A DNA stretch of 47,406 nucleotides, from IMG/VR virus record IMGVR_UViG_3300043465_000691, positions 1-47,406 of that record; one strand, 5' to 3'. Shown here one piece after another: positions 7,930-44,239 of the stretch. This DNA comes from a virus. The notes below the pieces were generated by a model. That model searched no databases. It saw only the letters and a program-made list of their open reading frames with translations, and was not told the DNA's origin. The position numbers and the translations under genes were made by a program. Every line of letters starts with the position of its first letter. Positions within the stretch are counted from its first letter, which is position 1.

Positions 7930-7937
7930 AATAATAT

Positions 7938-9547: not shown

Positions 9548-9946
9548 TCAATCCTCTACTGCATCGCTATAGTAATTTAGAGTTTTTAAGAAATCATATG
9601 CTTGTTCTACCACTGTTTTTGTAGATGCCATGTCAATAGACATCCAGAAATTAGTTTCTGATTTGGTTTCAACTCGCATGTCTGCAGGTACATCTGTAGG
9701 ATAAACTCCAATATGTGCAATTGGTAATTTGCCTGCATCTCTTGCAGCTTTATTATAAAATACCTGTACGCATACTCTACCGTAGTATCCTTTTTTCCAC
9801 TGCCAATCAGGACAGTTAGCCGGTCTAACACCTCCCGGATCCGGAATATCTGTTGGAATCTTATGTGTTATAACTTGACTTATTACATGGTACGCAGAGT
9901 CGGCGTCAATACCATTAGCAAGTTCATACCTTTTAATTAGTGCCAT
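9548..9946 (-). CDS. Conserved phage protein downstream of tail fibre
   Basis: A 132-residue protein, [20 protein letters not shown]..., with a [20 protein letters not shown] beta-hairpin-like middle and a final helix [13 protein letters not shown]. It resembles small proteins often found just after tail-fibre genes in myoviruses (a YH start, a beta sheet, a closing AYxxLK helix), but I cannot name a family. Its ATG lies inside the last codons of the giant tail-fibre gene (14-base overlap), so its translation is probably coupled to the fibre. That position suggests a role in fibre assembly or as part of the fibre. Confidence 0.65.
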
Positions 9947-22900: not shown

Positions 22901-23698
22901 GCTAGGAACAATAAAAGTTGCTTCGTTGAATAAAAAGGCTGCTTCGAGACTGGTAGGGTCAACATTTGCACCATCTAAGTATGCACCGCCGCCTGCATCA
23001 TTGCTGTCAAAACCGTAAGGGTCACCTACCGTAGGGTTTGATCCTTTTGTCAGTACTGAAAATCGTTCTACATACGGGCTACGTGTTGTGATTTTTGCAC
23101 CCGGTGCAAACTTAAATGCATATCCCGGTTTGTAAAATCCGCCAACAGTAAAGTCGCTGATTGTGGTTTCACCGTTTAATAAAAATGCACTCTGTGTATT
23201 GGTTGCAGTAGTAGGAGAAACGTATACCTGTCTAAGTCCTGCACCTTTAACTGATACTCCAGCTGGTACAGTTAGCGGGAATTCTTCAACGTATGTTCCT
23301 GCTAAAATGTTAACCGCAGCATTTGCTCCAACGGCATCTGCAAGTTCTAAACCTCGCTTTACAGTTCTAACAGCAGATTGCGGCAATTTGCCGCTTGCAT
23401 TATTGTCACCGTCTTCAGAAACATAGAAATGATGATAATCACTTTTTAATAAATTAACACCCTGAACAATTAAATCACCTTGAATGCCCACTCCGCCTGC
23501 GACCACTAATGCACCTGTTAGTGAACTAGTAGATGTGGTGGTGTTTATTATGAATAGTGGACCGCCAAACGTGGATCGGCCCGATGTTGCGATGCCCCCG
23601 TGTACAACGAGTGCTCCTGTTGTGGTGCTGGTTGATGTGGCTGTTAAACCATTAAGAACTACAGCACCGTTTTTAACGATGAAATCAGCTTGTGCCAC
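16985..23698 (-). CDS. Giant virion appendage protein with TGALxVxGG repeats and LamG-like domain
   Basis: A 2237-residue structural protein starting at GTG 23698 (MAQADFIVKNGAVVLNG), with AAGGGAAA as ribosome site. About 14 copies of a short repeat of the type TGALVVxGGVGIGGNLYxxN occur along its length; these probably form stacked beta turns of a fibrous shaft. Residues about 90-300 look pectin-lyase-like (FYVSEDGDNNASGK, VNILAGTYVEEFPLTVPAGV). Residues about 375-561 are LamG-like. Two copies of a DRGxLLHY module follow. The C-terminus ends in a beta cap (GSVRFVAKVETVEVTT) that is common at tail-protein ends. An AATAAATA element lies 38 bases upstream. Its place in the particle is inferred: long side fibre or baseplate appendage. 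Confidence 0.8.
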   Translation of the reverse strand: MAQADFIVKNGAVVLNGLTATSTSTTTGALVVHGGIATSGRSTFGGPLFIINTTTSTSSLTGALVVAGGVGIQGDLIVQGVNLLKSDYHHFYVSEDGDNNASGKLPQSAVRTVKRGLELADAVGANAAVNILAGTYVEEFPLTVPAGVSVKGAGLRQVYVSPTTATNTQSAFLLNGETTISDFTVGGFYKPGYAFKFAPGAKITTRSPYVERFSVLTKGSNPTVGDPYGFDSNDAGGGAYLDGANVDPTSLEAAFLFNEATFIVPSSEAVHITNGTRVELLNGFSYFADKGIVGTSGSVGWGGQGRTRLRLANSTGTFTVGHNLHYVGSTGTLLASGLIDEVTSEYVYLDGKASGFVEAADRTGKTINVYNATVISSFERKFGTGAAYFTTDGDLLDIVSDADLQYGFSSYTVEAWIHLTQNNRKQYVVNKGLTPSTTFGLWVGADNKLAGQHGAIAFTSTNTFSTGIWYHVMMSRDLSNTNRLFINGNLEATTTSSANITNADSLTIGGYTGVPTLSLRGYLDELRISTTPRYTGSFTPPTSAYASDNSTTVLLHCDGANLSTSFTDDGLGSQNVYSTTGTYTAAVVASAQQISLADYRQFGGELRSIGSAVVYGNYGIYADGEGIDFKAIAFNMSHIGSGKDFTNDPSLAIQANEIVRLNGAKVYFQTVDHLGDFRVGPEFRINQRTGNVDFGTANFRLGPLSSLTISDGVNTSVLQPTSIQVGQLLLSGSTIQTISGNLTLNPAGSLTTIESDLQVNGALNFTGQILATSVENAVSTTTGALVVRGGVGIAKDLWVGGKATIVGDLVVRGTTTIVNSTQTSIVDPILDLGINPDGTDLTVDDGFDRGLLLHYNTGSGTSTYTRTFLGMDNNSETLIYKTGVITGPAGAYTPSFASSGTWGAAKFGTLELMRTDAGGLLNSGALKVAGGGSFAGDLYANRYFDSTGLIVSTATIGQYVVTQALAGADINIESGITYPGRGVITISNTSTLQTVTQRGSTTTVALTFANVTNSTGTTTGALVVTGGVGVGGNLYASNLYSNGSPVVTESSIGDLGVTALTAGTDTAVSSSTGVIVVWNTSTLDTVANRGSTTTAAITILNTASSTSTTSGALTVRGGVGITGDVYAANIYSNGIQVLTTETDTLESVTMRGAITPYAVTFSNTSQATISGSTKAVGISGGLYVGKKLYVNEFVTFMSSPIVGAIDSRSALTVNGTNQLQSWYDPVGGIVDLLWTGTGLTGYFQLLPAGSQTLALGANDVVKIAGGSSGSNFVGINTATATAQLEVGGDIKAANIYSNGSLVITNASLGTYGVTSLTTGSGIAVNTSTGAVIIESIDTLQLVTERGNSTTNAIIINNNTVSNSTSTGALVVSGGVGIGGQATIETALITVSLKGTPAATAVFENTTASTTTTDGAVVIYGGLGVGKQVRAAELYDSGNRVVTNVNPTAGSGITITDEISVGTATSFTINNTGVIAAVGSTYIGVSSATGIVTFTNLGVQTLTAGTDTSVSRTTGTVVVWNTSTLQSVTNRGATTTNAISISNNTDSNTSTAGALTVAGGVGIGRNLIVGGNAAIYGNLQVFGTQTYVNSTQTVVIDPVLSLGAGIDNTNLNVNDGFDRGVLLHYSTTASSSSTYDNHSFLGMDNASKKLVYKTDIWPGGFQEFPALFSNTGTWGAAQFGSLNLVNTTSATNTVSGALTVAGGAGIGGDLYVGNRIYAAGLEVLTTSSLGSGGIGVSQIFAGTDTAVSSNFGAITIWSTATLDSITSRTSSTNQIIYFNNTSQATNTATGSVQVAGGVSIKKNLYVEGSIFGAPGYIEHSEYAGASPGTNQWIKCLTWSLPNVGDSTTFKIKSAVKATASVVYSDNMDNDVLWVSYVKDAVSTVLGTVYWISESGEAALSVGTTNHTVTYDPISGDFEYWRRSTVAGGRIWTLITEEIPANTAYQTVTPAMIVNSSWAASVTSLGATATIDDPDVTSFEDLTVAGTLTHSGTTANISNNTAALTANIASAATLAATLKTVNIGTAGVATSIANINIGSTITGALGVLTVGSTLTNFRSTQTAINTQSAAVVITGGLAVGDNIVLGDGATTRGILDANIVSNGTFAAAGDAQSGSYILRGLATSTSTFTLTVNNTTATTNNQVILPDNSSYMFKVFATAKSTTSNDEGAWEFSGSISRYAGANTTVVRTVNKTKIWASQAYDVNVVADAVNGGLSVQAIGVASGSVRFVAKVETVEVTT
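18650..18955 (-). repeat. DRGxLLHY module, copy 2 of the 2237-residue protein
   Basis: Encodes VNSTQTVVIDPVLSLGAG, then DGFDRGVLLHY, HSFLGMDNASKKLVYKT and TGTWGAAQFGSLNL. It repeats the plan of 20940-21260 and 25440-25740, so it is a re-used unit of about 100 residues. Confidence 0.7.
20940..21260 (-). repeat. DRGxLLHY module, copy 1 of the 2237-residue protein
   Basis: Encodes VNSTQTSIVDPILDLGIN, DGFDRGLLLHY, RTFLGMDNNSETLIYKT and SGTWGAAKFGTLEL. It is closest to the copy at 18650-18955 and looks like an internal duplication. Confidence 0.7.
22015..22575 (-). other. LamG/concanavalin-like domain inside the 2237-residue protein
   Basis: Residues about 375-561: SSYTVEAWIHLT, FGLWVGADNKL, GIWYHVMMSRDLSNTNRLFI, LTIGGY, GYLDELRIS and RYTGSFTPP. 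This order (EAWI, W-H--, L-ING, GYLDELRIS) is the classic LamG-like jelly roll, which often binds sugars or matrix proteins, so it is a candidate receptor-binding part. Confidence 0.82.
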
Positions 23699-28758: not shown

Positions 28759-31700
28759 TTATGCTCCTACAACCAAGATAAACGGTGTCATTTCAGCATA
28801 CAAACTCTTTTGGAAAGTTCGTCCGCTTAGAACGCCTGTACTCTGGCTAATAACCAGTGTAGGTCCGATTCGGAAGTCGCCATTTTGATCTGTTGAAGTA
28901 AAGAACACCTTACCATTATTTAACTGAACTACTTCTTTGCTCTGTTGAGGGTCAGCAGTACCAACTTGAGGCAATGCCCCGTACTGTGTACCTGCACCAA
29001 CATATTCAAACAAATAGCCAGAAGCAGAAATATAACTCTGTTGATAGAATCTAACACTTGCACCATCAATAAACAATGTTGGGTCAGTTACGTTCTGTTC
29101 TAGTCTCACTAAATGATACTGCCCTTTACGCAAGAAGTATCCATTACCAGTGTTTACAGAATTATAGTTTCCGCCATAGATTAGATCGTATCCCACTGCG
29201 TCTACAATTGCACCAGTGTCTCTAAAACATTTTGCTCTATCATAATTTGTTGCATCAGTAAACACTGCATCAATATATGCCACAACTTCTGCTTGAACAA
29301 AAGCTCTGTTTGCTAACAAGATACTAAACGAGTTTACAACCGCAGTGCTAGTGCTTGCTACTGCACTGATCGGCTCTTGTGTAGGTGCAACGCCTGGACC
29401 ATTTTCAATGATGTTTGTGATATTATCAATTTTTGCCTGCACTAAACTTACTTCAGCAGGAGTACCTACTGCTGAAGACAATACTTGTGGAACTTTCTTT
29501 TGATAAGTTACTGGAATTGCAGTACCTTGAATTATTTTATCAACCAGTTCTCTAATGTAATTGTATGCCGCAGTTGTCTGAGGAATCTGATCGTCAATAG
29601 CAGTGTCAGCTGCATTAAATCCGTAGTAGTAAACTCCGGAAGTAACACTTTGTCTGTTACCTCCGTGTTGTAAATCAAAACCAATGCTGTCAACAATATA
29701 GCCTATATCTCTTCTGCATTTTGTTCTGTCGTATTCAAATTCAGTATTGTCTAAATCAATTCTTGCAATAACTTCATCTTTAATAAAATTTGCATTTGCT
29801 TCTAATAAATCAATCGCTGTTACAATATCGGTACTAGTTTGAACCACACCGTTAGGCACAATTATGTCAGTTACTCCGCCTGTCCCATTTGATAAGATGT
29901 TGAGAATAACATCTACATTGCCAGTTAACACGCCCGCAATGCCTTCAGTGCTGGATGGAAGATTTGTTACTTGTACAGTATTATTTCCAGTAGTTGCAAC
30001 AACAGTGTTATTCAACACAATATCTCCAACTACTTGTTTTAGGTATCTAATAGCGTTAGTTGTAGTGGTAATTTCACCTCGAATGGTTCCTACGTATGTA
30101 TCTTGATTCCAATATTGCAGACCTGCAAATGTGCTTTCAGTAGTACCTTCATATAATAGGTCAAAAGCAATACTGTCAACAATCAATCCTGTGTCTCTTC
30201 GACACTTAGTTTTATCGTATAAGAATCCAGTGTTATATTCGTTGTTGATAAATGCGATTGTTTCTGCACGAATAAAATCTCTGTTAGCATTTAATAAATT
30301 TGCCGCATTAATTACAGAAGTGCTAGTGCTTCTTGTGAGTGCAATTGGTTCTTTTGCTAATACTTCGTCTGGACCGTATTCAATTATATTGTTAATTAAA
30401 TTAACATTACTCTTTATTAGGTCTGCTTCAACGGTAGTACCTGTTAGTGTTGATACTACCTGTACTACTGTACTTTGTTGGGGCTCAGCAATTAAGGTAC
30501 CTGTAACGATATCAGAGACAATTTGTTCAATAAAATTGTAAGCACTGGTTGTCTGAGGAATTTCATTTGGAATAGCTGTGCTATCTTCTAGGTAGCCGTA
30601 GTAATAAACTCCGCTTTGAACCGATTGTTTATTGCCGCCATATAGAACGTCAAAGCTGACGCTATCAATCATATAACCAACATCTCTAAAACACTTGTCT
30701 TTGTCGTATACGAACCCTGTGAATGTGCTATCAATATAAGCAATGATTTCGTCTTTGATAAATTCTCTGTTAGCTACTAACAAATCGTATGCACGATCTG
30801 CATTTGTATCAGTGCTTGGAGTTAGACTAATAGGAAATAGTTCGCTTGCTGCTGCTGGACCGTTGTTAATAATGTTTGTAATTTTATCAACTTTAGCTTG
30901 TGCCGCAGTAATCTGTGCAGTACTTGAAGGCAGCATATAGGTAACTTGGATAGTGCTGTTACCTAAACTTGGAGTAATAGTAACTCCAGTTAAAATACTT
31001 GGTAATATTTCTTTTATTCTATTATATGCTGCGGTAGTCTGCGGAATTTCATTTGGTACCGCAGTAGAGGTGCTATCATAACCGTAGTAAAGAACTCCGC
31101 TTTGAACAGCTTGTTTATTACCGCCGTGCAACAAGTCAAATGCAACACTGTCAACCATGTAGCCTACATCTCTTGCACACTTAGTTTGATCGTATTCAAA
31201 CTCAGCAGTTTTTGTATCTTCAACATATGCAATTGCTTCTGCTACTAGATACGGTTTATTTGCTATCAATAAATTATAAGCATTAACGGTAGCAGTAGTA
31301 ATGCTTCTTCTGCCATTAGGAACAATTATATCAGTAACGCCAGCAGTACCAGTTGAAAGGATATTTAAAATAACTCCAAAATCAGTGCCTACTGCTACTG
31401 CATCTAAAATTCCGCCCGATGCTGTAGAAGTAGTTTGTGTCACAGTGCTTTGATATCTAGTACCCGATAGGTCACCAACTACAACTTTTTGTGCTATTGA
31501 ACTGACATGTATAATTGCATTAGTGGTAGTGGTAATTTCTTCAGCAATTGACCCAACATAATTGCTTTGATTCCAATATTGCAGTCCAGCAAAATTGCTT
31601 TGGCTATCAGTGGCTGTTGGATATAATAAATCTAATGCAATACTGTCAACAATAAGACCTGTGTCTCTTGCACACTTAACAGAATCGTAAACAAAGTTTG

Positions 31701-34700
31701 CATTGGCTTCAACCCATGCTACCGTTTCGTGCTGTAGATAATTTCTATTTTGTTGCAATAAATTATATGCAGCTAATCTAGCAGATGCCGTTGATGCAGA
31801 TAATGCGTTAGGAACAATCTTATCAGTAATTCCATCTGTACCGTTATCTAAAATATCAACAATTACATTAAAGTTAGTTCCTACCACAGCAGAAATCAAA
31901 CTTGTAGAACTTGTAATAGTACTTACTACTTGAGTTACTGTGCTTTGATAGTTATATGTTGAAGTAGTATTTGTTACTACTTTCTGTGCAAGTGATTTTA
32001 AGTACTTAACTGCATTAGTAGTAGTTGTCTGCTCGCCCGGTATAACAGTTAGACCTTGATTCCAGTATTGAATTCCGGCAAAAGTACTTTGACTTGTTCC
32101 GTTGAATAATAAATCTTGTGCTAAACTGTCAACAATTAATCCAGTGTCTCTACTACACTTCACTGGGTCGTAACTAAATTTACTTGGCCAGATACTGTCC
32201 ACAAATGCCACTGTTTCGTTTTGAATAAACAGTCTATTCTTATCAAGTAACTTCTTAGCGTTTAAAATATTTTGATTTGTGTCAACATATTGTCTCGGAC
32301 GTTGGATAGCCGGACTAGAGTCAGCACCATTTATAATGATGTCAGCAATTATATCAAATTTTTCGCCTAGACTAGGCACAGCGTCGATGCCACCTGTTAA
32401 GGATGCGTCAAATATCTGTTGATATTCTGATTGGTATGTTCCAGAGTCGTAAGTTTCGTTAATGTATGCAATTACTTCTTCCTGAATAAATGCTCTATTA
32501 GCGTTTAGTAATCGATAAGCATTGTACACATTAGGATCGACTGACTCAGTTAAACTAATTGGAACTTTAATTTCGGCAACTGATGGTCCACTGTTGATAA
32601 TATTAGTAATATGGTCAATTAAAGTCTCAACCACAAGAACTTCGGTATCGGTAGCTGCATCTAAATTAGTAACTTGATCAAGGTACGTTTGGTATGTTGA
32701 AGTGGTAACACCTTTAAGAACAAACGGCATTAACTGCTTGATATAATTATAAGCCGCAGTAGTCTGAGGAATTTCTCCTTCAATGGCTGTGCTAGATGCA
32801 TTGTATCCGTAATAATAAACACCGCTTTGAATTGCCTGCCTATTGCTTGCCTGATTTCCATTAGGATGTATTAAATCAAATGCAACACTGTCAACCATAT
32901 AGCCAACATCTCTGTAGCATTTTACAGAATCATATGTAAATCCCGGAGCTTTTGTATATTCTACAAACGCAACTGCTTCTGTTTGAATATATGATCTGTT
33001 TGCAACTAACAGTGAGTACGCATTAACTATGTTTGTTGCAGTAGATTGATCTCCGTTTGGCACAATTCTATCACTTACTCCTGCAATTCCATCTATAATA
33101 ATATCAATAATAACTTCAAAATCGTCAGATACAATACCAGCTTCAACTGCGGTTGCAAAATCTCCTACAACATTTTGAGAAACAGTACTTTGGTATCTTG
33201 TTCCTGTTGTAATTCCTTGTACAATTTCTCGTGTAAGTTCCTGCACGTATCGAATTGCATTTGTGGTTGTGGTAATTTCGTCTGTAATTTCGTTAATGTA
33301 GTTTTCTTGATTCCAATATTGTAATCCTGCAAAATTACTTTGACTTAATTCAGGTGTTGGGTATAACAAGTCAAGTGCTAGTGCATCTACAATTAGTCCA
33401 GTATCTCGTTTACATTTGGCCTGATTATAAACTAGACCAGTAATTTCTTCGTTTTGTATTATTTTCAATGCTAGTTTTTTAGCATAGCTGATTGCTAAAC
33501 TAGTAGTAGTTTCTTGTCCAGGAACCAACGTCACTTCTGTAGTAACAGTTGACGACAGACTAGTATCAATAGAACTAGACAGTACTGTATAATAGGCATT
33601 GCCGCAGAAATACAAATTAAAATAGTTAGCATTAGCTAAGTCAGTATAACCTGTTAAGATAGGTGTGTCTAATGTTATAGAACGATAATTAACGTCAACT
33701 ACCTGTGTTCCGGTAGTAATGTACGGCTGTCCAGTAACTGGATGTGTTTCCATTCCTAGTACATCTCGAACATACAAAGTATGACCAACTGCAATACTAG
33801 TAACATCGATGTCGTTAATAGTATAACTACCAGTTGTGATAGTAGAGGTGTTGGAAGTAACCGCTAGATATCCCGGATATCCTGCTTCGTTAACATACGG
33901 AACACGATTACCTTCATAATTTATATATGTGTCAGGTGGAACAACTTCCATAACCTGACCAATGTGAGGACGATCGCGGTCATTAGGAATGAATACTTCC
34001 ATTATCTGTTTTTGAGGCCAGTAACCTAAAGGATAGTATTCACCGTTTGGTACGTTGGTAGGGTATGCAGGGTTTCTAATAAATCCCTGGAAGGCCAGTT
34101 TTCCTAATCCCTTTGCAGTTAAACAAGTGTCGCCGAAGTTGGCGTTAGAGTTAGTAATAGAAGCAATGCCTCCGTTCTCAACAATAACAGCCTGACTACA
34201 CATAATCGTAAACACAGATACAAGCTGTGCGTATCCGTTGTTAATAATATGAATGCCGATGCCGCCTTGATTCAACTGTGTAAACGCATCAAAAACAAAC
34301 GACTGAATAGGCGAACGTAAGCTAGGAGCATTACCGTCAACAAGGGCACCGCCTCCAGATCCTTCTGGGTTTAATCGACGGTCAACATATTTGTCGCCGT
34401 CGTCAGCGGTCCATATTGCAGGAATGTCTGCATCTAAGTAAGGATAGGTTGTGGTATATCCAAAATATACAGTTGCATTATCGCTTGGACTTACTGTAGA
34501 AGTACTAAGAGTGATAACATAGGTGTTGGTAGTCAACTGTGTTATTTCAGTAACAGTACTTGCAACGTTTACGTTATTTGGACTTAGCCCGGTTGGATAA
34601 ATCAATCCTAGTAAATCTGCTGTAGGTGTGTCTGGTGCTGCTGCTTCTCCATCTACAATAATATTTTTAATCAAATCATAACTTGATGCAGCTCTAGTAT

Positions 34701-36072
34701 AGACTACTTGTCCTTTATCAAGGTTTAAATTAATAACTTGATTTGATAATGTACTGTAAATATTTGTTACTGTGGTATTAGTAATAACTTCTAGAGAAAT
34801 TTCTTTCAAATAGTTAATTGCGTCAACTGTTTGAGTAACTTCGTTTGCTATTAACGAACTATTTCCACTCCAGTATGCAAGTCCGGCCTCAATACTACGT
34901 TTATTACCACCTAATCTTGCATCTCCTGCTACAGCATCAACAATGTAACCCACATCACGATAGCATTTTGCTTGGTCGTATACTAAGTCTGGAAAAGTAG
35001 CTTCTACATATGCAACAGTTTGACTTTGTAAGAAAGTTCTATTTTGTTTTAAAAGTACCTGTGCATTTCTATAACCTTCGTTTGCTGCATCATTTAATGC
35101 CATGCCTACAGCAATAGTTCCTGTATATAAAGTAACTGTAATTTGATTTTGATCAGCAATCCATGTACTAGTTCCTGCCGCTAATGGAATTTGAACTGTT
35201 TGGTTTGGCACCATCATTGTGCCATCTTTTAACCAAGGACCTGATTGATTAGTACAGTTCTGAATGTACGGAGAATAATAAATGTCAATCGGATTTTCTA
35301 AGTTAGGAGGAAATGCACAGCAATATGCACCAGTGGTATATGTGCCAGCACCGCCCGGTGCATATCTTTCGACTGCACCTCTACGTAGGTTACGCATCTG
35401 CATCTGTGCAATATAAACACCAGAGTTAACATGGAATAAGTCTAAGTCTTTGTTTAAAGGTTCAACGAATGTTGTACGTAAGTCGTTTCCAACCACGGAT
35501 GTATACGGCTTCAACGGAATAGGATTATCTTCAAAGTATGTACCTGCCATAACTTTAATAGCAGTACCCGATTGATAGAACGGGCTTCTTACAACTCCAC
35601 TAATAGTACGGCAAGCACGGGTTGAGTCCATTGATGTCCCGTCGTTTTCGTCGTTACCGTCAGGAGTTACATACAATGTATTACTGACCAGCGGTGCAGT
35701 TCCTTGAGGAATTCCTCTAACTGTAAAGTCACCATCTATAATTGCGTCTTGTTCAACACTAAAATTTCCGGCAACTCTAGCAGATTGATACGGAGTTAGA
35801 ACAATGTCGCCATTATTGACCGATCCGTTGATTTCGATGTCAACCCCTGCCTGTGTGCCGGATATTACTTGTTCATCAAATTCTAATTTGCCAAGTGTAT
35901 TGGTAAAAGTTACTCTGCCACTTTCATCTGTTTGTAAAGTAAAACCAGTATTTGCTTCAGGTGCGAGACCCAAAGCAGGTTGTGCTTGCTGAAGATTTAA
36001 ATATTCGAATCTATTTTCTTTTAAATCTTCCGGACGCGATACGGGTTTTCGATTACTTAATAAACGTGGCAT
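28759..36072 (-). CDS. Giant structural protein with ten KCxRD modules, 2437 residues
   Basis: Residues 1-125 carry a docking-like N-terminus (LNLQQAQPALGLAPE). Residues about 130-300 are a pectin-lyase-like start (LYVTPDGNDENDGTSMDSTR, KVMAGTYFEDNPIPLKPYTS, QNCTNQSGPWLKDGTMMVPN). One KCxRD module, a large beta domain (GSGGGALVDGNAPSLRSPIQ ... GIASITNSNANFGDTCL) and nine further KCxRD modules with one broken module follow. The end GTQYGALPQVG, VVQLNNGKVFFTSTDQNGDF, ...MTPFILVV is nearly identical to that of the 2187-residue protein. It is clearly a paralogue of that protein. Proteins of this type are virion proteins in cyanophages. ATG 36072 has AAAGAGAAA upstream. No catalytic site is evident. 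Confidence 0.8.
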   Translation of the reverse strand: MPRLLSNRKPVSRPEDLKENRFEYLNLQQAQPALGLAPEANTGFTLQTDESGRVTFTNTLGKLEFDEQVISGTQAGVDIEINGSVNNGDIVLTPYQSARVAGNFSVEQDAIIDGDFTVRGIPQGTAPLVSNTLYVTPDGNDENDGTSMDSTRACRTISGVVRSPFYQSGTAIKVMAGTYFEDNPIPLKPYTSVVGNDLRTTFVEPLNKDLDLFHVNSGVYIAQMQMRNLRRGAVERYAPGGAGTYTTGAYCCAFPPNLENPIDIYYSPYIQNCTNQSGPWLKDGTMMVPNQTVQIPLAAGTSTWIADQNQITVTLYTGTIAVGMALNDAANEGYRNAQVLLKQNRTFLQSQTVAYVEATFPDLVYDQAKCYRDVGYIVDAVAGDARLGGNKRSIEAGLAYWSGNSSLIANEVTQTVDAINYLKEISLEVITNTTVTNIYSTLSNQVINLNLDKGQVVYTRAASSYDLIKNIIVDGEAAAPDTPTADLLGLIYPTGLSPNNVNVASTVTEITQLTTNTYVITLSTSTVSPSDNATVYFGYTTTYPYLDADIPAIWTADDGDKYVDRRLNPEGSGGGALVDGNAPSLRSPIQSFVFDAFTQLNQGGIGIHIINNGYAQLVSVFTIMCSQAVIVENGGIASITNSNANFGDTCLTAKGLGKLAFQGFIRNPAYPTNVPNGEYYPLGYWPQKQIMEVFIPNDRDRPHIGQVMEVVPPDTYINYEGNRVPYVNEAGYPGYLAVTSNTSTITTGSYTINDIDVTSIAVGHTLYVRDVLGMETHPVTGQPYITTGTQVVDVNYRSITLDTPILTGYTDLANANYFNLYFCGNAYYTVLSSSIDTSLSSTVTTEVTLVPGQETTTSLAISYAKKLALKIIQNEEITGLVYNQAKCKRDTGLIVDALALDLLYPTPELSQSNFAGLQYWNQENYINEITDEITTTTNAIRYVQELTREIVQGITTGTRYQSTVSQNVVGDFATAVEAGIVSDDFEVIIDIIIDGIAGVSDRIVPNGDQSTATNIVNAYSLLVANRSYIQTEAVAFVEYTKAPGFTYDSVKCYRDVGYMVDSVAFDLIHPNGNQASNRQAIQSGVYYYGYNASSTAIEGEIPQTTAAYNYIKQLMPFVLKGVTTSTYQTYLDQVTNLDAATDTEVLVVETLIDHITNIINSGPSVAEIKVPISLTESVDPNVYNAYRLLNANRAFIQEEVIAYINETYDSGTYQSEYQQIFDASLTGGIDAVPSLGEKFDIIADIIINGADSSPAIQRPRQYVDTNQNILNAKKLLDKNRLFIQNETVAFVDSIWPSKFSYDPVKCSRDTGLIVDSLAQDLLFNGTSQSTFAGIQYWNQGLTVIPGEQTTTTNAVKYLKSLAQKVVTNTTSTYNYQSTVTQVVSTITSSTSLISAVVGTNFNVIVDILDNGTDGITDKIVPNALSASTASARLAAYNLLQQNRNYLQHETVAWVEANANFVYDSVKCARDTGLIVDSIALDLLYPTATDSQSNFAGLQYWNQSNYVGSIAEEITTTTNAIIHVSSIAQKVVVGDLSGTRYQSTVTQTTSTASGGILDAVAVGTDFGVILNILSTGTAGVTDIIVPNGRRSITTATVNAYNLLIANKPYLVAEAIAYVEDTKTAEFEYDQTKCARDVGYMVDSVAFDLLHGGNKQAVQSGVLYYGYDSTSTAVPNEIPQTTAAYNRIKEILPSILTGVTITPSLGNSTIQVTYMLPSSTAQITAAQAKVDKITNIINNGPAAASELFPISLTPSTDTNADRAYDLLVANREFIKDEIIAYIDSTFTGFVYDKDKCFRDVGYMIDSVSFDVLYGGNKQSVQSGVYYYGYLEDSTAIPNEIPQTTSAYNFIEQIVSDIVTGTLIAEPQQSTVVQVVSTLTGTTVEADLIKSNVNLINNIIEYGPDEVLAKEPIALTRSTSTSVINAANLLNANRDFIRAETIAFINNEYNTGFLYDKTKCRRDTGLIVDSIAFDLLYEGTTESTFAGLQYWNQDTYVGTIRGEITTTTNAIRYLKQVVGDIVLNNTVVATTGNNTVQVTNLPSSTEGIAGVLTGNVDVILNILSNGTGGVTDIIVPNGVVQTSTDIVTAIDLLEANANFIKDEVIARIDLDNTEFEYDRTKCRRDIGYIVDSIGFDLQHGGNRQSVTSGVYYYGFNAADTAIDDQIPQTTAAYNYIRELVDKIIQGTAIPVTYQKKVPQVLSSAVGTPAEVSLVQAKIDNITNIIENGPGVAPTQEPISAVASTSTAVVNSFSILLANRAFVQAEVVAYIDAVFTDATNYDRAKCFRDTGAIVDAVGYDLIYGGNYNSVNTGNGYFLRKGQYHLVRLEQNVTDPTLFIDGASVRFYQQSYISASGYLFEYVGAGTQYGALPQVGTADPQQSKEVVQLNNGKVFFTSTDQNGDFRIGPTLVISQSTGVLSGRTFQKSLYAEMTPFILVVGA
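29150..35040 (-). repeat. KCxRD module array (10 modules) in the 2437-residue protein
   Basis: KCxRDxGxxVDxxxxD motifs lie near 29221, 29705, 30190, 30681, 31170, 31661, 32143, 32909, 33399 and 34951. The step is 482-491 bases except for 766 (a broken module) and 1552 (the central beta domain). There are two main subtypes. Type A reads DTGLIVDSIAxDLLY, STFAGLQYWNQ, EITTTTNAI. Type B reads DVGYMVDSVAFDLLHGGNKQ, VYYYGY, EIPQTTAAYN. Confidence 0.82.
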
Positions 36073-36092
36073 TGCTTTCTCTTTAAAATATT

Positions 36093-36479
36093 TTAGTTGT
36101 TAGCTGTTTCGAGAATACTCAATACTAACTTCATAGTGCCGTTAGCATCTGTGAACGCTCGAATACTATCTTGTGCTTCTAAAATCATTTTACCAGTGAT
36201 CAAACTTGCTGAATCGTTTGGCGGTACTTCAAAGTTCTGAACTAGTTCTGTAGTAATGTTAGGTTCTTGTGAGTTGTTGCCCTGTGCATCTGGCAGCACT
36301 CTAAAACGTCTGTGATGACTGAATGTAATAGTGTGCGATGCAGTAGGGTCAACGTTTGCAACCTGAGCCATTAGTACAATTGAAGTAACACCAATAGGTG
36401 CAACATATACTGTCGCTGTTGAATTTGTATCTAATACTTTTGTTTTTGTTTTAAACGTGTTTAATGGAATTAATGCCAT
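36093..36479 (-). CDS. Small beta-type virion protein, 128 residues
   Basis: MALIPLNTFKTKTKVLDTNS is followed by beta strands: ATVYVAPIGVTSIVLMAQVA, NVDPTASHTITFSHH, FEVPPNDSASLITGKMILE, QDSIRAF, LKLVLSILE-type end. The order of strands (VYVAPxGxTSI, xxVPxxDSxSLxxGKxxLxxxDSIxA, LxLSILE) matches that of the 105-residue protein at 43922-44239, so the two are probably distant paralogues. ATG 36479 has AAGGAGAA upstream; the gene lies between the two paralogous giant genes and is co-transcribed with them. It probably caps or links the appendages. No family name is known to me. Confidence 0.72.
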   Translation of the reverse strand: MALIPLNTFKTKTKVLDTNSTATVYVAPIGVTSIVLMAQVANVDPTASHTITFSHHRRFRVLPDAQGNNSQEPNITTELVQNFEVPPNDSASLITGKMILEAQDSIRAFTDANGTMKLVLSILETANN

Positions 36480-36490
36480 ATATTTCTCCT

Positions 36491-39400
36491 TTATTCTCCG
36501 CCCGTCTCAACTGCTAAGATGAAGGGCGTCATCTGAGCGAATAAACTCTTTTCAAATGTTCTTCCTGATAATACACCAGTTGCCTGACTAATTACCAACG
36601 TTGGTCCAATTCGGAAATCTCCGTTCTGATCCGTTGAAGTAAAGAACACCTTACCATTATTTAACTGAACTACTTCTTTGCTCTGTACAGGATCAACACG
36701 ACCTACTTGAGGTAATGCACCGTACTGTGTGCCGGCACCGCAGTATTCAAACAAATAACCAGATGCACTTTGATAACTTCTTTGATAGAAATTAACAGTA
36801 CTACCGTCAATATATAACAACGGGTTCCTCACGTTGTCTTCAATTGTAACTATATGATAAGTTCCGTCTCTTGTGTAATATGTTTTAGCTGCTTCAACTG
36901 CACGGAAGTTTCCGCCAGTTGCTAAATCAGCAACTATTGCATCAATCATCAAACCAACGTCTCTTCGACATTTTTGTCTGTTGTATTCAAAGCCACCAAA
37001 CTCATTTGCAATGTATGCAATGACTTCTGCTTTGATAAAATCTTTGTTTGCATTTAATAATGCAAATGCTCGTGCTACCGCCTGACTAGTATCCATTACT
37101 AAACCAATTGCTTTTCTTTCTTCTGCAACAGACGGACCATTAGATAAAATATTAGTAATAACATCAATCTTAGATTGTAATGTAACGGCCTCTGCATCAG
37201 TTGCAGGCAATAGATTAGTAATCTGTGCTATTGCATTTTGATACTTAGGACTAATCGGAGTTCCGGTTATAATATCTCCTACTAGTCCTTTGATAAAGTT
37301 ATATGCCGCAGTAGTCTGAGGAATCTCTCCTACAATAGTAGAACTAGTTGCATCAAAGTTATAGTAATATACCCCAGCCATTATACTCTGTCTGTTACCA
37401 CCGTGTACTAGGTCAATAGAAACGCTGTCAATAATGTAGCCAACATCACGAGAGCATTTGGCTTGATCGTATGTAAATCCAGGATGGTTAGCAGTGATCC
37501 AACTAATTACCTGAGCCTGTATAGTTGACTTGCTAGCCTGTAGAGAATCAAATGATGCTAACGCACCGGCGTCTGTTGTTTTGTATCCGTTAGCTACAAT
37601 AATATCTGATACGCCAACTGTTCCATTCTCTAAAATTTCTAGTATTTCGTCAAATCGTTGTCCAACTACTACTCCACCACTACCTGCTGCCGACACTGCT
37701 AGACCTTTTGCATATTCAATCGCAGCAGTAGTTGTGGTAATTTGGCCGCCAATGCCGTCAACGTAATTAGTTTGACTCCAGTATTGTAAGCCTGCAAATG
37801 TACTCTGTGAAGTATCGTCATACAACATGTCCATAGCAATACTGTCAATAATTAATCCAGTATCTCTCCTACACTTATTCTCATCGTATGTGAATCCGCC
37901 AAATATATCATCAGTGTATCCAACTACTTCGTTCTGAATAAAAATTTTATTTAATTTTAGTAATTCAATTGCACTTTCATAATAATCTGCTCTAGTGCCA
38001 GTTGATTGTACAGCCGGTGCAACTTGTGGGCCAGATAAAATTACATTGGTGATAATATTAAGACGATCTCTAATGAAAGAAATAGTATTTTCACCACCTT
38101 GATAACTTGTATTAATATTTTGACTAACCGTAGTAGTATATGTTCCAGTGAATGCTACATTGGAAACTACTGCACTTGCTAATTTCTTTAAGTGATTAAT
38201 AGCATCAATAGTTTCTGTTTCTTGTCCAAGAATTTTACTTTGTCCTGTTGGGTACGGGCTTTCTGCTACTACACTGGTCAACACATTATAATATGCATTT
38301 CCACAGCAATAGATATTGAAGTAGAAACCGTTTCCGTATTCTCCGCCGCCCGTTTCAATGGGATTACTTAAAGTAATAGATTGATAGTTTACTTCTACAA
38401 TTGTTGTACCAGTAGAAAGATATCTAGTACCTTCTCCGTTGTCAGGTGCTTCGTAACCAAATTGATCTTTAATAAAAACTTCTTGCCCTACGCTTGCACC
38501 AGTGACGTCAATTCCAGAAATAGTGTAGCTGCCAGTTGTTATCGAGCTAGTGTTAATAATTGCTGTTAAGAATCCAGGATAGCCTTGTTCATTTCTGTAT
38601 GGCACTACCTCGCCGTCATAGTTTACATACTGATCCGGGGGCTCTACCTCCATTACTAAACTAATGTGTGGCCTGTTGAGTGGGTCTGGAACAAATACAC
38701 CAACTTGCTGTCGGTATGGGAAGAACCCCTGCGGATAATATTCGTTTGGTTCAAATTCGTTCGTCAGCTCATTGTAAGCAATGTTTGCTGGGTTATAGAT
38801 TGTACCGCCAAACTTTCTTTTGCCGTAACCTGTTGATAATAAACATAAATCGCCAAAGTTATTGTTAGAGTTAGTAATAGAAGCAATGCCTCCACTAGCA
38901 GTTTCGACAGCAACATTACAGAAAATTGTAAACACAGAAACTAACTGTGCATAACCTTCGTTAATAATGTGAATGCCGCGGCCGCCTTGTGTAATTTGCG
39001 TAAACGCATCAAACACAAACGACTGAATCGGACTTCTACGGCTTGGAGCATTTCCGTCAACTAGAGCTCCGCCACCCGAACCGTTTGGATCAATACGACG
39101 ATCTGCATAACCGTTTTCACTCCACTCGCCTGGCATATTTTTATCTTCAACTGGGTATACTGATGTATATCCAATATAGATAGTGTCGTTTACGGCTGCA
39201 CTAACTGTAGAAGTGCTTAGATTAATAATGAATTGTGTTAGGGTACTATTTGTACTAAACGGAGCATAAGCCGGGCCGTTGTTAATAATAGTAGTAATAG
39301 CATTAAAATTACTGTCAACTAGATCTCTTGCAACATCGCCGCTTGGTAACTGACTATTGATAATCTGAGAAACTACCGCTGTCATTGTGGTAGAACTTGT

Positions 39401-42400
39401 TCCAGGAATAATTGTTTCCATCGATTCTTGATAGAAAGATGTAACTGGATTGTTAGCAATAACGTCAAGTGCAATGCTCTTGATATATTGAATTGCACCG
39501 GCAGTTTCTTTTAATTGTCCTTCAATTACACTAACAGCACCGTCCCAATACGATAGTCCTGCTTCAAGAGAGTTCACATTTGACCTACGAATAATATCAT
39601 TTGCAATTGCATCAACAATTAATCCAACATCTCTAAAACATTTTTCTTCGTTGTAATTAAATTCGTAGGGTTGGATAAATGTCTTGTTTACAAACTCAAC
39701 AGTTTCAGCAACGATAAAAGCTCTGTTGTCTTTTAATATCTGGTATGCACGAGCAATATTAGTTGAAGTACTAGCTGCCAATGTGATAGGCACTTGGACC
39801 GGAGCTTCGCTTGGTCCTTTCTTAATTATTCTTTTAATTAAGTTTATATTTTCAGTAATTGCTTTGGCTTCATTAATACTTGCACCCAAGTAGTCAAAAT
39901 TTTGTTCAACTTCAGTTTGATAAACTTTTGTAGCTGGAATACGTTGAACTACCTTCTCAATCAATGTGCCCATAAATTTATATGCTGCCATTGTTTGTGG
40001 AACTTCGTTAACTAATACGGTACTAGTACTATTATATCCGTAGTAATATACACCAGCCTGAACGCTTTGTCTATTGCCACCACGTAACAAGTCCATAGCC
40101 ACACTGTCAATTACATAAGTAACATCTCTTCGACATTTTGTTTGATCGTATGTAAAACCTGGATTGTTTGTGTTTATCCATGCAATAACTTCGTCTGCAA
40201 TAAAATCTTTATTTCCTATTAAATTATTAATTGCATTAGTTATGGAAGTACCTGTGTTAATATCACCGTTAGGCACTATTATGTCAGTTACTCCAATAGT
40301 CCCGTCAGTGATAATATCAATTACCGTATCAAATTTTAACCCTAAAATATCTGCGGTGGTAATATCAGTTCCTGTACTAATATATTGTGTTAACGTGCCC
40401 TGCGGAGAAATTGCAATTCCTTGAACAATATCTTTAGAAATGTCTCTTGCAAAAGTGAAGGCGTTAGTTGTAGTAGTTTCTTCACCTGGAATAACTGTAT
40501 TAGTTTGATTCCAGTATTGTAGTCCTGCAAAAGTACTTTGACTAGATCCGCCATGTACTAAATCTAAGACCAAGCCGTCCAAAATTAGTCCAGTATCTCG
40601 TCCACACTTTTCTTCATTATATTCAAAATCTAAGTTAGTAAAGGTAACATCGATATAGTTAACTACTTCGTGCTGTAAAAATGCTTTGTTAGCAACTAAT
40701 AGATTGTAAGCAGCAACAATTCCAGGAATGGAACTGATACTTCCGTTGTTTACAATTGTTGGGACTAATAGTCCATCATTAATCAGTGCGTTAATTAACT
40801 CTATATTTCTAGTAGTAAGTTCTACAGCAGCGTTTGTACCTGTAACTAAGTTAGTCACTTGAGTTACCGTAGTTTGATAGCCGTCGTTTATCTCTTGTTG
40901 GAGAATAACATCTCTTACTATCATGCCTAAATAATTAAATGCTGCAATTGTTTCATCTACTTCGTCAGCTATAGCAATACCGCCAAGGTAAGCACTTCCG
41001 GCAGCAACTGATTGTTCATTGCCACCGTACAACAAATCTGTAGCAATGGCATCAATAATGTAGCCAGTATCTCTAAAACATTTTGCTCTGTCGTATTCAA
41101 AACTAGGAATTGGTTGTCCAACGTATGTGTTATTAACAAACGCTACTGTTTCAGCTTGTAAGAATCCTCTATTTGCATTTAACAATGCTGCGGCATTTTC
41201 ATAACCGGTATTGTTTCTTATAATGTCAATTAATAAATCCATCAACATGACAATATTGTCTTCGGCAATATCACCGTCAACTAATTCTATGTCTACTACT
41301 TGATTAGCAATATTTCCTGCACTCTGTATAGTTGACAGATCTGCATTATTAACAATCCCTACCGCAAATGTTTTAATTCTTTCAAATGCTGCAATAGTTG
41401 GAATTGTTTCTTCGCCGAGAATTTGTACATTGCCAAGATAGTAAGAACGACCCGTGTCAACAATTTTTTCATTACCGCCAAGTACTGCATCGTTTATCAA
41501 TGCATCTATAACATATCCTGCATCTCTTCGACATTTTGTTTGATCGTAAACCAGTTCTGGATAAGCAACATTAATATATGCAAGTACTTCTTCTTGCATA
41601 TAAGATTTATTCAAAGTCAATAATTGTTTTGCGTTCCTAAAGCCGGGATCTGGGTTTTCAACTGACTCAATCGTAGCAATCGGTGCATCGTCTTCAATTA
41701 GAATGCCTGAGCCGTTCACTGCCATACCAATCTTAGGCATCTGTGCAGTTACTTCAGGTTGAATATTAATTGTAATTGTAGTAGTACTGGACGCATAGGT
41801 TGCAGTTGCTACTACTAACGGAATTTGAACAATCTGATTTGGCACAAACATTGTGCCATCATATAGCCACGGACCTGACTGGTTAGTACAGTTTTGAATA
41901 TACGGACTATGGAATAGATCAATAGGATTATCTAGTCGAGGAGGAAATGCAACACAATATGCACCAGTGGTATATGTGCCAGCACCGCCTGGTTGATAGC
42001 GAGTAACTTCACCACGTCGCAGATTTAACATGGTCATACCTGTGATATAAACACCAGAGTTTACATGGAACAAGTCAACTGTTTTATTCAACGGCTCTAC
42101 AAACACACCTCGCAAGCTATCGCCGTATACTGACGTATACGGTAATAATGGAATAGGATTATCTTCTGCATAATAACCCGGTGCTATTTTAATAACTGTG
42201 CCTTGTTTAAAATAAGGACTGCGTGTAGCTCCAGTAATTGTGCGGCAAGCACGAGTTGCATCCATTGCACGGCCATCGTTGTCGTCGCTTCCGTTTTCGT
42301 TTACATACAAAATATTATTAACAACAGGTGCAGTACCCAAAGGACTGCCACCATACACACGGATGTCTCCGTTAATCTGTACGCTCTTGTTTAAAGTTCT

Positions 42401-43054
42401 TTCTAACAACGGAATATCAGGAAAGAACTGTATGCTAGTAGCAGTTCCAGCAGTGTCAATCTGTTTTGTGTAGATATTTTCTAAGTATGCACTTTGCCAA
42501 TAGCTAGCAGTGTTACCTAAACTGTATTCAGAAACAATTTCTGTACTGGTGTAAAAATCAGTTACTGTTAAGCCAGTAGTTGTACTGATGTATGTTGAGA
42601 AAGTTCCACTACTAATATAAGGAAGTATATCGCTTTCTACTTCACCAAACAATTGAATAGTGTCTGTAGATGTAGTATCACCTAATTTGATATTTCCTTG
42701 TGCAAAGAAATTACCTGTGGCAAAAACATCGCCGTCTACTCTTAGATCAGATTCAACAAATGTATCGTCGTCGCCGCCTGGAGCAATTGTGAACGGTCCA
42801 AAGATTGTGGAAAGTGTGCTACTTGAAGTAGAGCTTTCAATAGTAACTAGTCCGATAGTTGCAGTATCTGCTATCAGAACTTTTGTTGTGAGTGTGCCGT
42901 TTACTTCTAATTCAGTACGAGGAGCATCGGTTCGAATACCTATGCGGCCATTAACAACATCAATGTATAGCAGATCGGTTTCGACTGCAATGTTGACTCC
43001 ATCCCTAAGCAGATTTTGTGCTAAGAGTGGGCCCGTTATACGACCTACGGCCAT
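36491..43054 (-). CDS. Giant structural protein with eight KCxRD modules, 2187 residues
   Basis: The N-terminus MAVGRITGPLLAQNLLRDGV then LLYIDVVNGRIGIRTDAPRT is typical of T4-like cyanophage virion proteins. A pectin-lyase-like part follows (LYVNENGSDDNDG, TRACRTITG, QNCTNQSGPWLYDGTMFVPN). Then come five KCxRD modules, a central beta domain (GSGGGALVDGNAPSRRSPIQ, GIASITNSNNNFGDLCL, GTTIVEVNYQSITLSNPIET), three more modules and the shared end GALPQVGRVDPVQSKEVVQL...MTPFIL. It is a paralogue of the 2437-residue protein with a different number of modules on each side of the central domain. ATG 43054 has GGGAG upstream. A 90-base leader with hairpins separates it from a GATAAATA element. It is the first of the giant genes to be read. 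Confidence 0.8.
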   Translation of the reverse strand: MAVGRITGPLLAQNLLRDGVNIAVETDLLYIDVVNGRIGIRTDAPRTELEVNGTLTTKVLIADTATIGLVTIESSTSSSTLSTIFGPFTIAPGGDDDTFVESDLRVDGDVFATGNFFAQGNIKLGDTTSTDTIQLFGEVESDILPYISSGTFSTYISTTTGLTVTDFYTSTEIVSEYSLGNTASYWQSAYLENIYTKQIDTAGTATSIQFFPDIPLLERTLNKSVQINGDIRVYGGSPLGTAPVVNNILYVNENGSDDNDGRAMDATRACRTITGATRSPYFKQGTVIKIAPGYYAEDNPIPLLPYTSVYGDSLRGVFVEPLNKTVDLFHVNSGVYITGMTMLNLRRGEVTRYQPGGAGTYTTGAYCVAFPPRLDNPIDLFHSPYIQNCTNQSGPWLYDGTMFVPNQIVQIPLVVATATYASSTTTITINIQPEVTAQMPKIGMAVNGSGILIEDDAPIATIESVENPDPGFRNAKQLLTLNKSYMQEEVLAYINVAYPELVYDQTKCRRDAGYVIDALINDAVLGGNEKIVDTGRSYYLGNVQILGEETIPTIAAFERIKTFAVGIVNNADLSTIQSAGNIANQVVDIELVDGDIAEDNIVMLMDLLIDIIRNNTGYENAAALLNANRGFLQAETVAFVNNTYVGQPIPSFEYDRAKCFRDTGYIIDAIATDLLYGGNEQSVAAGSAYLGGIAIADEVDETIAAFNYLGMIVRDVILQQEINDGYQTTVTQVTNLVTGTNAAVELTTRNIELINALINDGLLVPTIVNNGSISSIPGIVAAYNLLVANKAFLQHEVVNYIDVTFTNLDFEYNEEKCGRDTGLILDGLVLDLVHGGSSQSTFAGLQYWNQTNTVIPGEETTTTNAFTFARDISKDIVQGIAISPQGTLTQYISTGTDITTADILGLKFDTVIDIITDGTIGVTDIIVPNGDINTGTSITNAINNLIGNKDFIADEVIAWINTNNPGFTYDQTKCRRDVTYVIDSVAMDLLRGGNRQSVQAGVYYYGYNSTSTVLVNEVPQTMAAYKFMGTLIEKVVQRIPATKVYQTEVEQNFDYLGASINEAKAITENINLIKRIIKKGPSEAPVQVPITLAASTSTNIARAYQILKDNRAFIVAETVEFVNKTFIQPYEFNYNEEKCFRDVGLIVDAIANDIIRRSNVNSLEAGLSYWDGAVSVIEGQLKETAGAIQYIKSIALDVIANNPVTSFYQESMETIIPGTSSTTMTAVVSQIINSQLPSGDVARDLVDSNFNAITTIINNGPAYAPFSTNSTLTQFIINLSTSTVSAAVNDTIYIGYTSVYPVEDKNMPGEWSENGYADRRIDPNGSGGGALVDGNAPSRRSPIQSFVFDAFTQITQGGRGIHIINEGYAQLVSVFTIFCNVAVETASGGIASITNSNNNFGDLCLLSTGYGKRKFGGTIYNPANIAYNELTNEFEPNEYYPQGFFPYRQQVGVFVPDPLNRPHISLVMEVEPPDQYVNYDGEVVPYRNEQGYPGFLTAIINTSSITTGSYTISGIDVTGASVGQEVFIKDQFGYEAPDNGEGTRYLSTGTTIVEVNYQSITLSNPIETGGGEYGNGFYFNIYCCGNAYYNVLTSVVAESPYPTGQSKILGQETETIDAINHLKKLASAVVSNVAFTGTYTTTVSQNINTSYQGGENTISFIRDRLNIITNVILSGPQVAPAVQSTGTRADYYESAIELLKLNKIFIQNEVVGYTDDIFGGFTYDENKCRRDTGLIIDSIAMDMLYDDTSQSTFAGLQYWSQTNYVDGIGGQITTTTAAIEYAKGLAVSAAGSGGVVVGQRFDEILEILENGTVGVSDIIVANGYKTTDAGALASFDSLQASKSTIQAQVISWITANHPGFTYDQAKCSRDVGYIIDSVSIDLVHGGNRQSIMAGVYYYNFDATSSTIVGEIPQTTAAYNFIKGLVGDIITGTPISPKYQNAIAQITNLLPATDAEAVTLQSKIDVITNILSNGPSVAEERKAIGLVMDTSQAVARAFALLNANKDFIKAEVIAYIANEFGGFEYNRQKCRRDVGLMIDAIVADLATGGNFRAVEAAKTYYTRDGTYHIVTIEDNVRNPLLYIDGSTVNFYQRSYQSASGYLFEYCGAGTQYGALPQVGRVDPVQSKEVVQLNNGKVFFTSTDQNGDFRIGPTLVISQATGVLSGRTFEKSLFAQMTPFILAVETGGE
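36900..41560 (-). repeat. KCxRD module array (8 modules) in the 2187-residue protein
   Basis: KCxRD motifs lie near 36957, 37441, 37857, 39626, 40120, 40587, 41067 and 41518. Steps are about 416-494 bases, apart from the 1769-base gap filled by the central beta domain. The same two subtypes occur as in the neighbouring paralogue (for example type A at 37857 and 40587, type B at 37441 and 40120). Confidence 0.82.
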
Positions 43055-43921: not shown

Positions 43922-44239
43922 TTAGGCCGTTTGTACATAACTTACTGTAGCGGTGATAATTAAATTCTGACTAGCTTGTGCTTGAATACTGTCACCGTCA
44001 TTAAGAATAAATCTCTCCGTGTCCATACTGAATGTTTCTCCAGCAGGCAAAGATATTTCATTCATAATCATATTGGCATCACCTGCTGCGACTGCCGCCG
44101 GCACTGCCCAAACTGTTACTGTTGCATCAACAGATAAACTTGTATTACATAAGATAATACAAGTGATTGCGTTTTCGCCGGACCCAACAAATACTTCTGT
44201 TTTTGCAGTTGAGCTAAGTTGCGAATTTGTGATTGCCAT
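43922..44239 (-). CDS. Small beta-type virion protein, 105 residues
   Basis: MAITNSQLSSTAKTEVFVGS, then NAITCIILCNTSLSVDATVT, VWAVPA, ISLPAGETFSMDTERFILND, GDSIQA and ATVSYV. This all-beta plan (cNTs-s-D-TV-VW-VP, LPAGETFxxDTExxIL-DGDxI) is frequent in small virion proteins of T4-like cyanophages. It looks like a distant relative of the 128-residue protein at 36093-36479. ATG 44239 has AAGGAT upstream, overlapping the stop of the preceding gene, so the two are coupled. The exact role is unknown. Confidence 0.72.
   Translation of the reverse strand: MAITNSQLSSTAKTEVFVGSGENAITCIILCNTSLSVDATVTVWAVPAAVAAGDANMIMNEISLPAGETFSMDTERFILNDGDSIQAQASQNLIITATVSYVQTA

Follow-up and report, generated by a model that had tools for sequence, protein, structure and literature searches.

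The window, a viral record of 47,406 bases analysed at its full length, encodes on its minus strand two giant proteins of 2437 and 2187 residues (giants 1 and 2, both open reading frames (ORFs); Table 1), in which the motif KCxRD occurs 10 and 8 times, respectively. A Gp23 capsid match (E = 2.8e-96) and profile matches to tail sheath, head-tail connector and baseplate wedge identify the window as a T4-like structural neighbourhood. Giant 1 matches the PHROG profile phrog_4527 (E = 3.7e-93), while giant 2 matches phrog_5342 (E = 3.7e-102). The motifs lie in modules of about 160 residues, and as a hub common to both proteins starts at about residue 568 in giant 1 and 1321 in giant 2, the modules before and after the hub number 1/9 and 5/3, respectively. 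Giant 1 also contains a partial module without the motif, read by eye between motifs 1051 and 1305 (spacing 254). The giants contain 17 and 16 cysteine residues, of which 10 and 8 are in the motif.

These ORF sizes, the 18 KCxRD modules and their 1/9 and 5/3 arrangement had been proposed from the DNA letters and translations alone (hereafter the sequence-only reading), and were confirmed from the translations and motif positions. The start, central domain and C-terminus, which that reading regarded as common to both giants, share 52, 51 and 58% identity over residues 224–613, 1162–1637 and 1720–2182 of the 2187-residue protein, respectively; the last value does not bear out a "nearly identical" C-terminus. 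The core described as a constant KCxRDxGxxVD contains KCxRD in all 18 modules, but in module 973 of giant 2 the G after this motif is absent, and the "V" of "VD" can also be I or L. No match was found by Pfam scan at the start of the giants, where a pectin-lyase-like fold had been suggested. The arrangement of two giants is not due to chance, as the 2187-residue gene recurs complete, with 5/3 modules, in five other contigs (L009–L011 at ~100% and L012 and L013 at ~80% identity); the 2437-residue gene is complete in L009 and L011 (1/9) and L013 (1/11), and is truncated at the edge of the contig in L010 and L012.

The module is predicted to adopt the phycobiliprotein version of the globin fold. 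A single module (p1_1793), modelled by AlphaFold2 from 121 sequences, forms six helices with a predicted local distance difference test score (pLDDT) of 95.0 and a predicted template modelling score (pTM) of 0.89. The sequence-only reading, which had proposed this prediction as a check, was right on the repeat anatomy but missed the phycobiliprotein-like globin identity. In a Foldseek search of the PDB, the first 36 rows are phycobiliproteins or phycobilisomes (probability 1.00, query template modelling (TM) score 0.62–0.67, best E = 2.1e-3), followed at row 37 by the heme globin DosC (TM 0.52). The 50 rows listed by VIA-align are likewise phycobiliproteins or phycobilisomes by title (Z 16.4–14.5), save 8u0f, a "Bacterial fluorescent protein", with alignments spanning 122–143 residues at 1.7–3.4 Å (1.8 Å over 129 residues for 7lj0_B). 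A tandem model of p1_1631 and p1_1793 (pLDDT 86.1) retrieved the same families in all 50 VIA-align rows (Z up to 16.5), where alignments run from residue 1–9 to 314–325 and strands lie at residues 80–87 and 242–249; this model suggests that neighbouring modules are in contact, or share or exchange parts. Among viral models, Foldseek found 19 matches at E ≤ 1e-3, including tail proteins of S-PM2, S-WAM2, S-CAM1, S-H9-1 and S-ShM2. A heme globin identity was rejected, as no conserved histidine was found among the columns kept in >60%.

Sequence comparison points to the same family. Giant 2 matches PF00502 (Phycobilisome) over the cut-off (E = 9.8e-6, 26.1 bits versus 22.2), as does, independently, a protein of the isolate DSL-LC03 (E = 3.4e-6), and of 121 modules searched singly, 24 match PF00502 at E ≤ 1, compared with 2 for the next family. 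Phycocyanin made up five of the 7 sequences retrieved at E ≤ 10 by a PDB profile search with 16 window modules (best E = 2.4e-3), and 29 of 30 matches obtained with the 121 diverse modules (best E = 2.7e-4). In the profile alignments of the 16 window modules, KCxRDxGY of the module is aligned on KCxRDxGY of phycocyanin with CxRD in register, and the loop leading to the motif helix is some 10 residues shorter than that of phycocyanin. As the modules of alignments A1–A3 had been picked by KCxRD, a further set was compiled without demanding the motif, comprising 712 distinct cores from 902 covering domains of 1155, although the loci themselves had been fetched with the KCxRD pattern. In this set C is conserved in 700, R in 699, D in 706, K in 454, Asp60 in 712 and Tyr76 in 710 cores. 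The 54 cores from cyanophage isolates retain C in 48, Asp49 in 53, Asp60 in 45 and Tyr76 in 54, while R and the complete CxRD are kept in 26, and six cores have no cysteine or a gap at that position; Cys and Asp are thus a more general conserved pair than Arg.

Several results weigh against this identification. PF00502 stays below the cut-off in the 2437-residue protein, S-PM2 p088, L018, L024 and L040, so that 2 of 7 whole proteins pass, and a genome-level PF00502 search of the window gave no match. When the ten motif columns were masked (11 of the 16 window modules in the alignment), none of 4 matches was phycocyanin; the sequence link is therefore the motif, and the fold link is a prediction whose AlphaFold2 input also contained the motif. 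Identity in the structural alignments is 7–16%. The module lacks the X-Y helices: alignment to the phycobiliprotein chain begins at residue 18–34 in 49 of 50 VIA-align rows and at residue 2 in one. The Foldseek E against the PDB never went down to 1e-3 with either model, and no match of the tandem model was better than E = 0.2, unrelated proteins standing among its matches.

With these points weighed, the giants are probably fibre proteins carrying a string of phycobiliprotein-fold beads, the probability covering both the fold and common descent. Both would be fibre proteins of a T4-like virion, whose shafts may consist of strings of the ~160-residue domains, which lack the N-terminal X-Y helices by which phycobiliprotein alpha and beta chains pair. 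A fixed hub would stand between two module strings, with fixed N- and C-terminal domains closing the ends, and the bead number on each side may determine how long the fibre is and where the hub lies. The module ancestor was most likely a bilin-binding globin of the clade of phycobiliproteins and bilin biosynthesis-associated globins (BBAGs), built into the fibre and then multiplied. Within this explanation we infer common descent over convergence, the fibre role, and length as the selected quantity.

The modules resemble phycobiliproteins (phycocyanin and phycoerythrin; PF00502) in their predicted fold (Z 16.4) and in CxRD in register, whereas they are in tandem in one chain of a putative phage fibre, share 7–16% identity and have bilin only as a candidate ligand. 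As the X-Y helices are missing, the modules are not filed as phycobiliproteins, and membership is claimed for fold and motif only. BBAGs, some of which contain CxRD (PMC10151467), are likewise phycobiliprotein relatives outside light harvesting, and are companions of heme oxygenase and bilin reductase genes. They differ from the modules in being bacterial proteins encoded with bilin genes, whereas the modules are in tandem in a phage fibre, and bilin genes occur in only some module-bearing phages and not beside the fibre gene. The giants of T4-like cyanophages (phrog_4527 and phrog_5342; S-PM2 p088 GC830, SSM1_102 GC969 and S-ShM2_093 GC1121) belong to the same module family, and those of S-SM1 and S-ShM2 have baseplate genes nearby, the former being a virion protein by proteomics. 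Unlike the giants of the window, they contain fewer modules and often a replaced Arg in CxRD, and the annotations examined bear no phycobiliprotein label. T4 long tail fibres, which are trimeric and beta-rich, may be comparable as long appendages of a T4-like virion, whereas the window fibres are predicted to be helical globin-like beads. A full-text search of open-licence literature, preprints not covered, turned up no phage fibre with a phycobiliprotein-like shaft.

A four-module stretch searched against 50,697 phage records gave 333 matches at E ≤ 1e-3, of which 269 carry a Synechococcus name, 55 a cyanophage name and 8 a Prochlorococcus name, the remaining one being a marine single-cell record. 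In 21 selected cyanophage genomes (W01–W21: 16 from Table 1 of PMC3037559, DSL-LC03, S-CREM2 and three further Prochlorococcus phages), the module is present in 15 (E ≤ 1e-3), namely 6 of the 9 with Prochlorococcus and 9 of the 12 with Synechococcus as isolation host, the match of P-SSM4 being weak (E = 2.3e-5) and giving no core in the isolate module extraction. SSM1_102 of S-SM1 carries modules and is T4-GC969, one of 41 proteins reported from purified virions of S-SM1 (PMC3037559). Presence in the virion is thus supported for one relative only; no module was found in gp85, a long tail fibre of S-CREM2 that proteomics had detected. Six module-encoding contigs are in bacterial and archaeal metagenome bins (L090–L092 in Rhodobacteraceae Water_Bin34, and L093–L095) and are perhaps phage contigs.

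The number of modules on each side of the hub varies in evolution, as the sequence-only reading had supposed, while the N-terminus, hub and C-terminus stay. At least 74 module loci were found by scanning viral contigs with the module (a few being the same contigs), including near-identical and ~80% identical loci (L009–L014). CxRD modules in related contigs number 0–14 before and 0–23 after the hub, such as 4/11 (L019), 5/15 (L024), 14/7 (L025), 10/3 (L021) and 0/23 (L074), and many related proteins contain 4, 6 or 8 modules before and 1 after the hub. The ~80% relative L013 encodes a 2437-residue orthologue with 1/11 instead of 1/9, while the 2187-residue orthologue is 5/3 in all five contigs holding it complete, three of which are near-identical to the window. 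Clustering of neighbouring modules, named in the sequence-only reading as a sign of recent tandem duplication, was not observed: identity in the window giants is 0.368 for adjacent modules (n = 16) and 0.369 for non-adjacent modules of the same protein (n = 57), and in 55 non-redundant proteins lag-1 identity (0.404) is not above that at lags 2–6 (0.399–0.417). With neighbours no closer to each other than to more remote modules, recent tandem duplication is not seen; module copying is real over evolution, but old or reshuffled. One-to-one alignment of modules between the giants together with a constant number, which the same reading had set against copying as a source of variation, holds in its first part for the last three modules (2281/2028, 0.59; 1956/1727, 0.54; 2118/1866, 0.48), but the total number is not constant.

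Of 30 non-redundant proteins listed by hand, 25 contain an even number of modules before the hub, counted without regard to kinship; the list derives from 46 rows after removal of 13 that lack modules ahead of the hub, one truncated where its contig starts and two lacking an N-terminal match. Even numbers are perhaps due to two neighbouring modules forming one structural unit, while a strict two-module repeat is only a lead, as lag 2 lies above lags 1 and 3 in just 10 of 55 proteins. The module protein at L040 8675–16561, which also matches Pfam E1_FCCH (E = 1.5e-15), contains a clear two-module alternation (lag 2, 0.43; lag 1, 0.30). That module p1_369 is a chimera, with its front from p2_507 and its back from p2_1138, was considered but is not claimed because the windowed identities are noisy.

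The bead-string explanation is divided by two readings of the conserved cysteine. There is about an even chance that the phycobiliprotein fold is a relic serving as a structural spacer, in which packing inside a module or between modules accounts for the conservation of Cys46, Asp49, Asp60 and Tyr76. Asp60 and Tyr76, which are not known to be bilin ligands, are conserved as well as CxRD in the 712 cores, Arg48 is dispensable in the isolates, and the tandem model hints at contacts or part exchange between neighbours. Bilin genes are also few in the 30 module-bearing metagenomic records surveyed, although many of these are fragments: bilin reductase (PF05996) occurs in 3, each time beside a heme-oxygenase-like frame recognised by eye, CpeT in one and CpeS in none. 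The same, often fragmentary records contain no psbA or Hli, so that a cyanobacterial host for the window lineage, sought through these two genes, gained no support. However, packing leaves unexplained why the exact C-x-R-D of bilin-binding globins is kept in ~98% of the 712 modules, while other globins do without it.

A rather doubtful reading is that the cysteine of each module carries a covalent bilin and makes the virion a candidate pigment array, the bilin being taken from the host (in phycobilisome hosts) or synthesised with a heme oxygenase and bilin reductase that the phage itself encodes, and serving stability, photoprotection or light-dependent adsorption. Phycobiliproteins attach bilin covalently at CxRD, a motif that bilin-binding BBAGs also contain (PMC10151467), and each module retains one, apparently unpaired, cysteine. 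Among the 21 isolates, bilin reductase is encoded by 8 of 9 phages isolated on Prochlorococcus and 1 of 12 on Synechococcus, and among the module-bearing ones by 6 of 6 and 0 of 9, respectively. Prochlorococcus is described as having no intact phycobilisomes, and cpeT is reported in 12 of 16 phages (PMC3037559). The split by host fits phages supplying pigment where the host lacks it. Against a bilin load, module and reductase are unassociated across the same isolates (6 with both, 9 with the module only, 3 with the reductase only and 3 with neither; Fisher p = 1.0), and P-SSM2, P-SSM5 and S-SSM7 possess the reductase with no module detected. The six Prochlorococcus phages that combine reductase and modules represent four genera, and CxRD modules occur in just three of them, all of one genus, while modules of P-RSM4 and P-SSM7 show CxDD, CxTD or no Cys. 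The incomplete retention of CxRD and cysteine in the isolate cores and the shorter loop before the motif also count against it. T-type lyases, moreover, serve another cysteine.

Metagenomic records weigh in the same direction. Modules are present in 11 of 35 reductase-bearing records of at least 26 kb (from 80 of 302 matches listed, omitting two already known) and in 16 of 26 control records of at least 25 kb matched to the capsid of the window (among the 80 matches listed; four already in the module set). At ≥80 kb the fractions are 8/11 and 6/7, and an enrichment of modules among reductase contigs was thus rejected. G002, the nearest long relative of the window (151 kb, perhaps incomplete), contains no bilin reductase, CpeT, CpeS, psbA or Hli; PF05996 is absent from the nearest relatives G001–G003, and neither heme oxygenase nor bilin reductase was found among the window proteins scanned, which did not include every small ORF.

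The reductase is in the same record as the modules, not beside them, in G012, G020, G025 and G051. Methanotrophs, the hosts inferred for pmoC phages, are not phycobilisome organisms. G051 (83 kb; L302, L303, L136 and L259), which speaks for a bilin load, encodes a 3837-residue module protein (six profile matches, two CxRD), a bilin reductase beside a heme-oxygenase-like frame (by eye) and an AmoC/PmoC-family gene (E = 6.9e-113), the family being found in 1 of 34 records searched. Phages with pmoC have been inferred to infect methanotrophs (PMC7674155), and hemO with ferredoxin-dependent bilin reductase (FDBR) in such phages is called "still enigmatic", BBAGs being named as one possible partner (PMC11480375); the role of phage bilin-synthesis genes has also been called a mystery (PMC3037559). 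The segments L098 87–2058 and L136 169–2133 from two phages have the same gene order: small heat-shock-like, ClpS-like and heme-oxygenase-like frames (all three by eye) and then bilin reductase.

The broader proposition that many T4-like phage virions carry bilin on tandem fibre modules, with pigment taken from the host where it has phycobilisomes and otherwise produced with phage-encoded heme oxygenase and bilin reductase, and that phage bilin genes serve virion assembly rather than host metabolism, is unlikely. If bilin binding is true, phage bilin-synthesis genes would be explained, and a phage-encoded candidate apoprotein with a bilin-attachment motif makes their purpose testable; even without bilin, a light-harvesting fold would have been turned into viral building material. 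Convergence, in which a chance KCxRDxGY likeness to phycocyanin in a helical fibre domain of unrelated origin steered AlphaFold2 towards the phycobiliprotein fold, agrees with the effect of masking and the low structural identity, but is improbable, as the fold match takes in much more than the motif helix, phycobiliproteins outrank the heme globin in Foldseek, and two different alignments (single and tandem models) gave the same family.

Table 1. Features of the two giant genes and their surroundings; all are on the minus strand, and the number in a module name is the residue of its KCxRD motif in protein 1 (p1) or 2 (p2).
Feature	Position	Strand	Remarks
Giant tail-fibre protein 1 (putative)	28759..36072	-	2437 aa; modules 1 before/9 after hub; phrog_4527
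Giant tail-fibre protein 2 (putative)	36491..43054	-	2187 aa; modules 5 before/3 after hub; phrog_5342, PF00502
N-terminal domain of protein 1	35233..35736	-	Residues 113–280; shared with protein 2
N-terminal domain of protein 2	41867..42373	-	Residues 228–396; shared with protein 1
Hub of protein 1	34087..34371	-	Residues 568–662
Hub of protein 2	38810..39094	-	Residues 1321–1415
C-terminal domain of protein 1	28771..29061	-	Residues 2338–2434; phrog_17885
C-terminal domain of protein 2	36506..36802	-	Residues 2085–2183; phrog_17885
Module p1_369	34612..35100	-	KCxRD position; before hub
Module p1_886	33061..33549	-	KCxRD position
Module p1_1051	32566..33054	-	KCxRD position
Partial module, protein 1	32308..32565	-	Without KCxRD; residues ~1170–1255, limits approximate; motif spacing and eye
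Module p1_1305	31804..32292	-	KCxRD position
Module p1_1466	31321..31809	-	KCxRD position
Module p1_1631	30826..31314	-	KCxRD position
Module p1_1793	30340..30828	-	Used for single-module structure prediction
Tandem p1_1631 + p1_1793	30349..31323	-	Predicted together
Module p1_1956	29851..30339	-	KCxRD position
Module p1_2118	29365..29853	-	KCxRD position
Terminal module p1_2281	29065..29364	-	Short, runs into C-terminal domain; limits approximate
Module p2_507	41180..41668	-	KCxRD position
Module p2_658	40727..41215	-	KCxRD position
Module p2_816	40253..40741	-	KCxRD position
Module p2_973	39782..40270	-	KCxRD position
Module p2_1138	39287..39775	-	KCxRD position; within Pfam Phycobilisome match, residues 1096–1202
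Module p2_1727	37520..38008	-	KCxRD position
Module p2_1866	37103..37591	-	KCxRD position
Terminal module p2_2028	36806..37105	-	Limits approximate
Small phrog_1276 protein	36093..36479	-	128 aa; directly upstream of giant 1; E = 1.8e-11
Second phrog_1276 protein	43922..44239	-	105 aa; one gene upstream of giant 2; E = 9.4e-4

The two phrog_1276 proteins and the two giants suggest a duplicated cassette of small protein and giant fibre, and an attachment or chaperone role of the 128-residue protein is a guess. In S-CREM2, a small gene annotated as tail fibre attachment precedes the long fibre gene.

Elsewhere in the window, a 2OG-Fe(II) oxygenase gene is flanked by two phrog_7802 genes of unknown function (7606–8881). 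Two further giant genes encode a 2336-residue protein with tail fibre and collagen-like profiles (9933–16943) and a 2237-residue baseplate wedge protein (16985–23698), the latter sharing weak matches with the C-terminal domain (E = 5.4e-8) and the hub (E = 1.3e-4) of the module-bearing giants.

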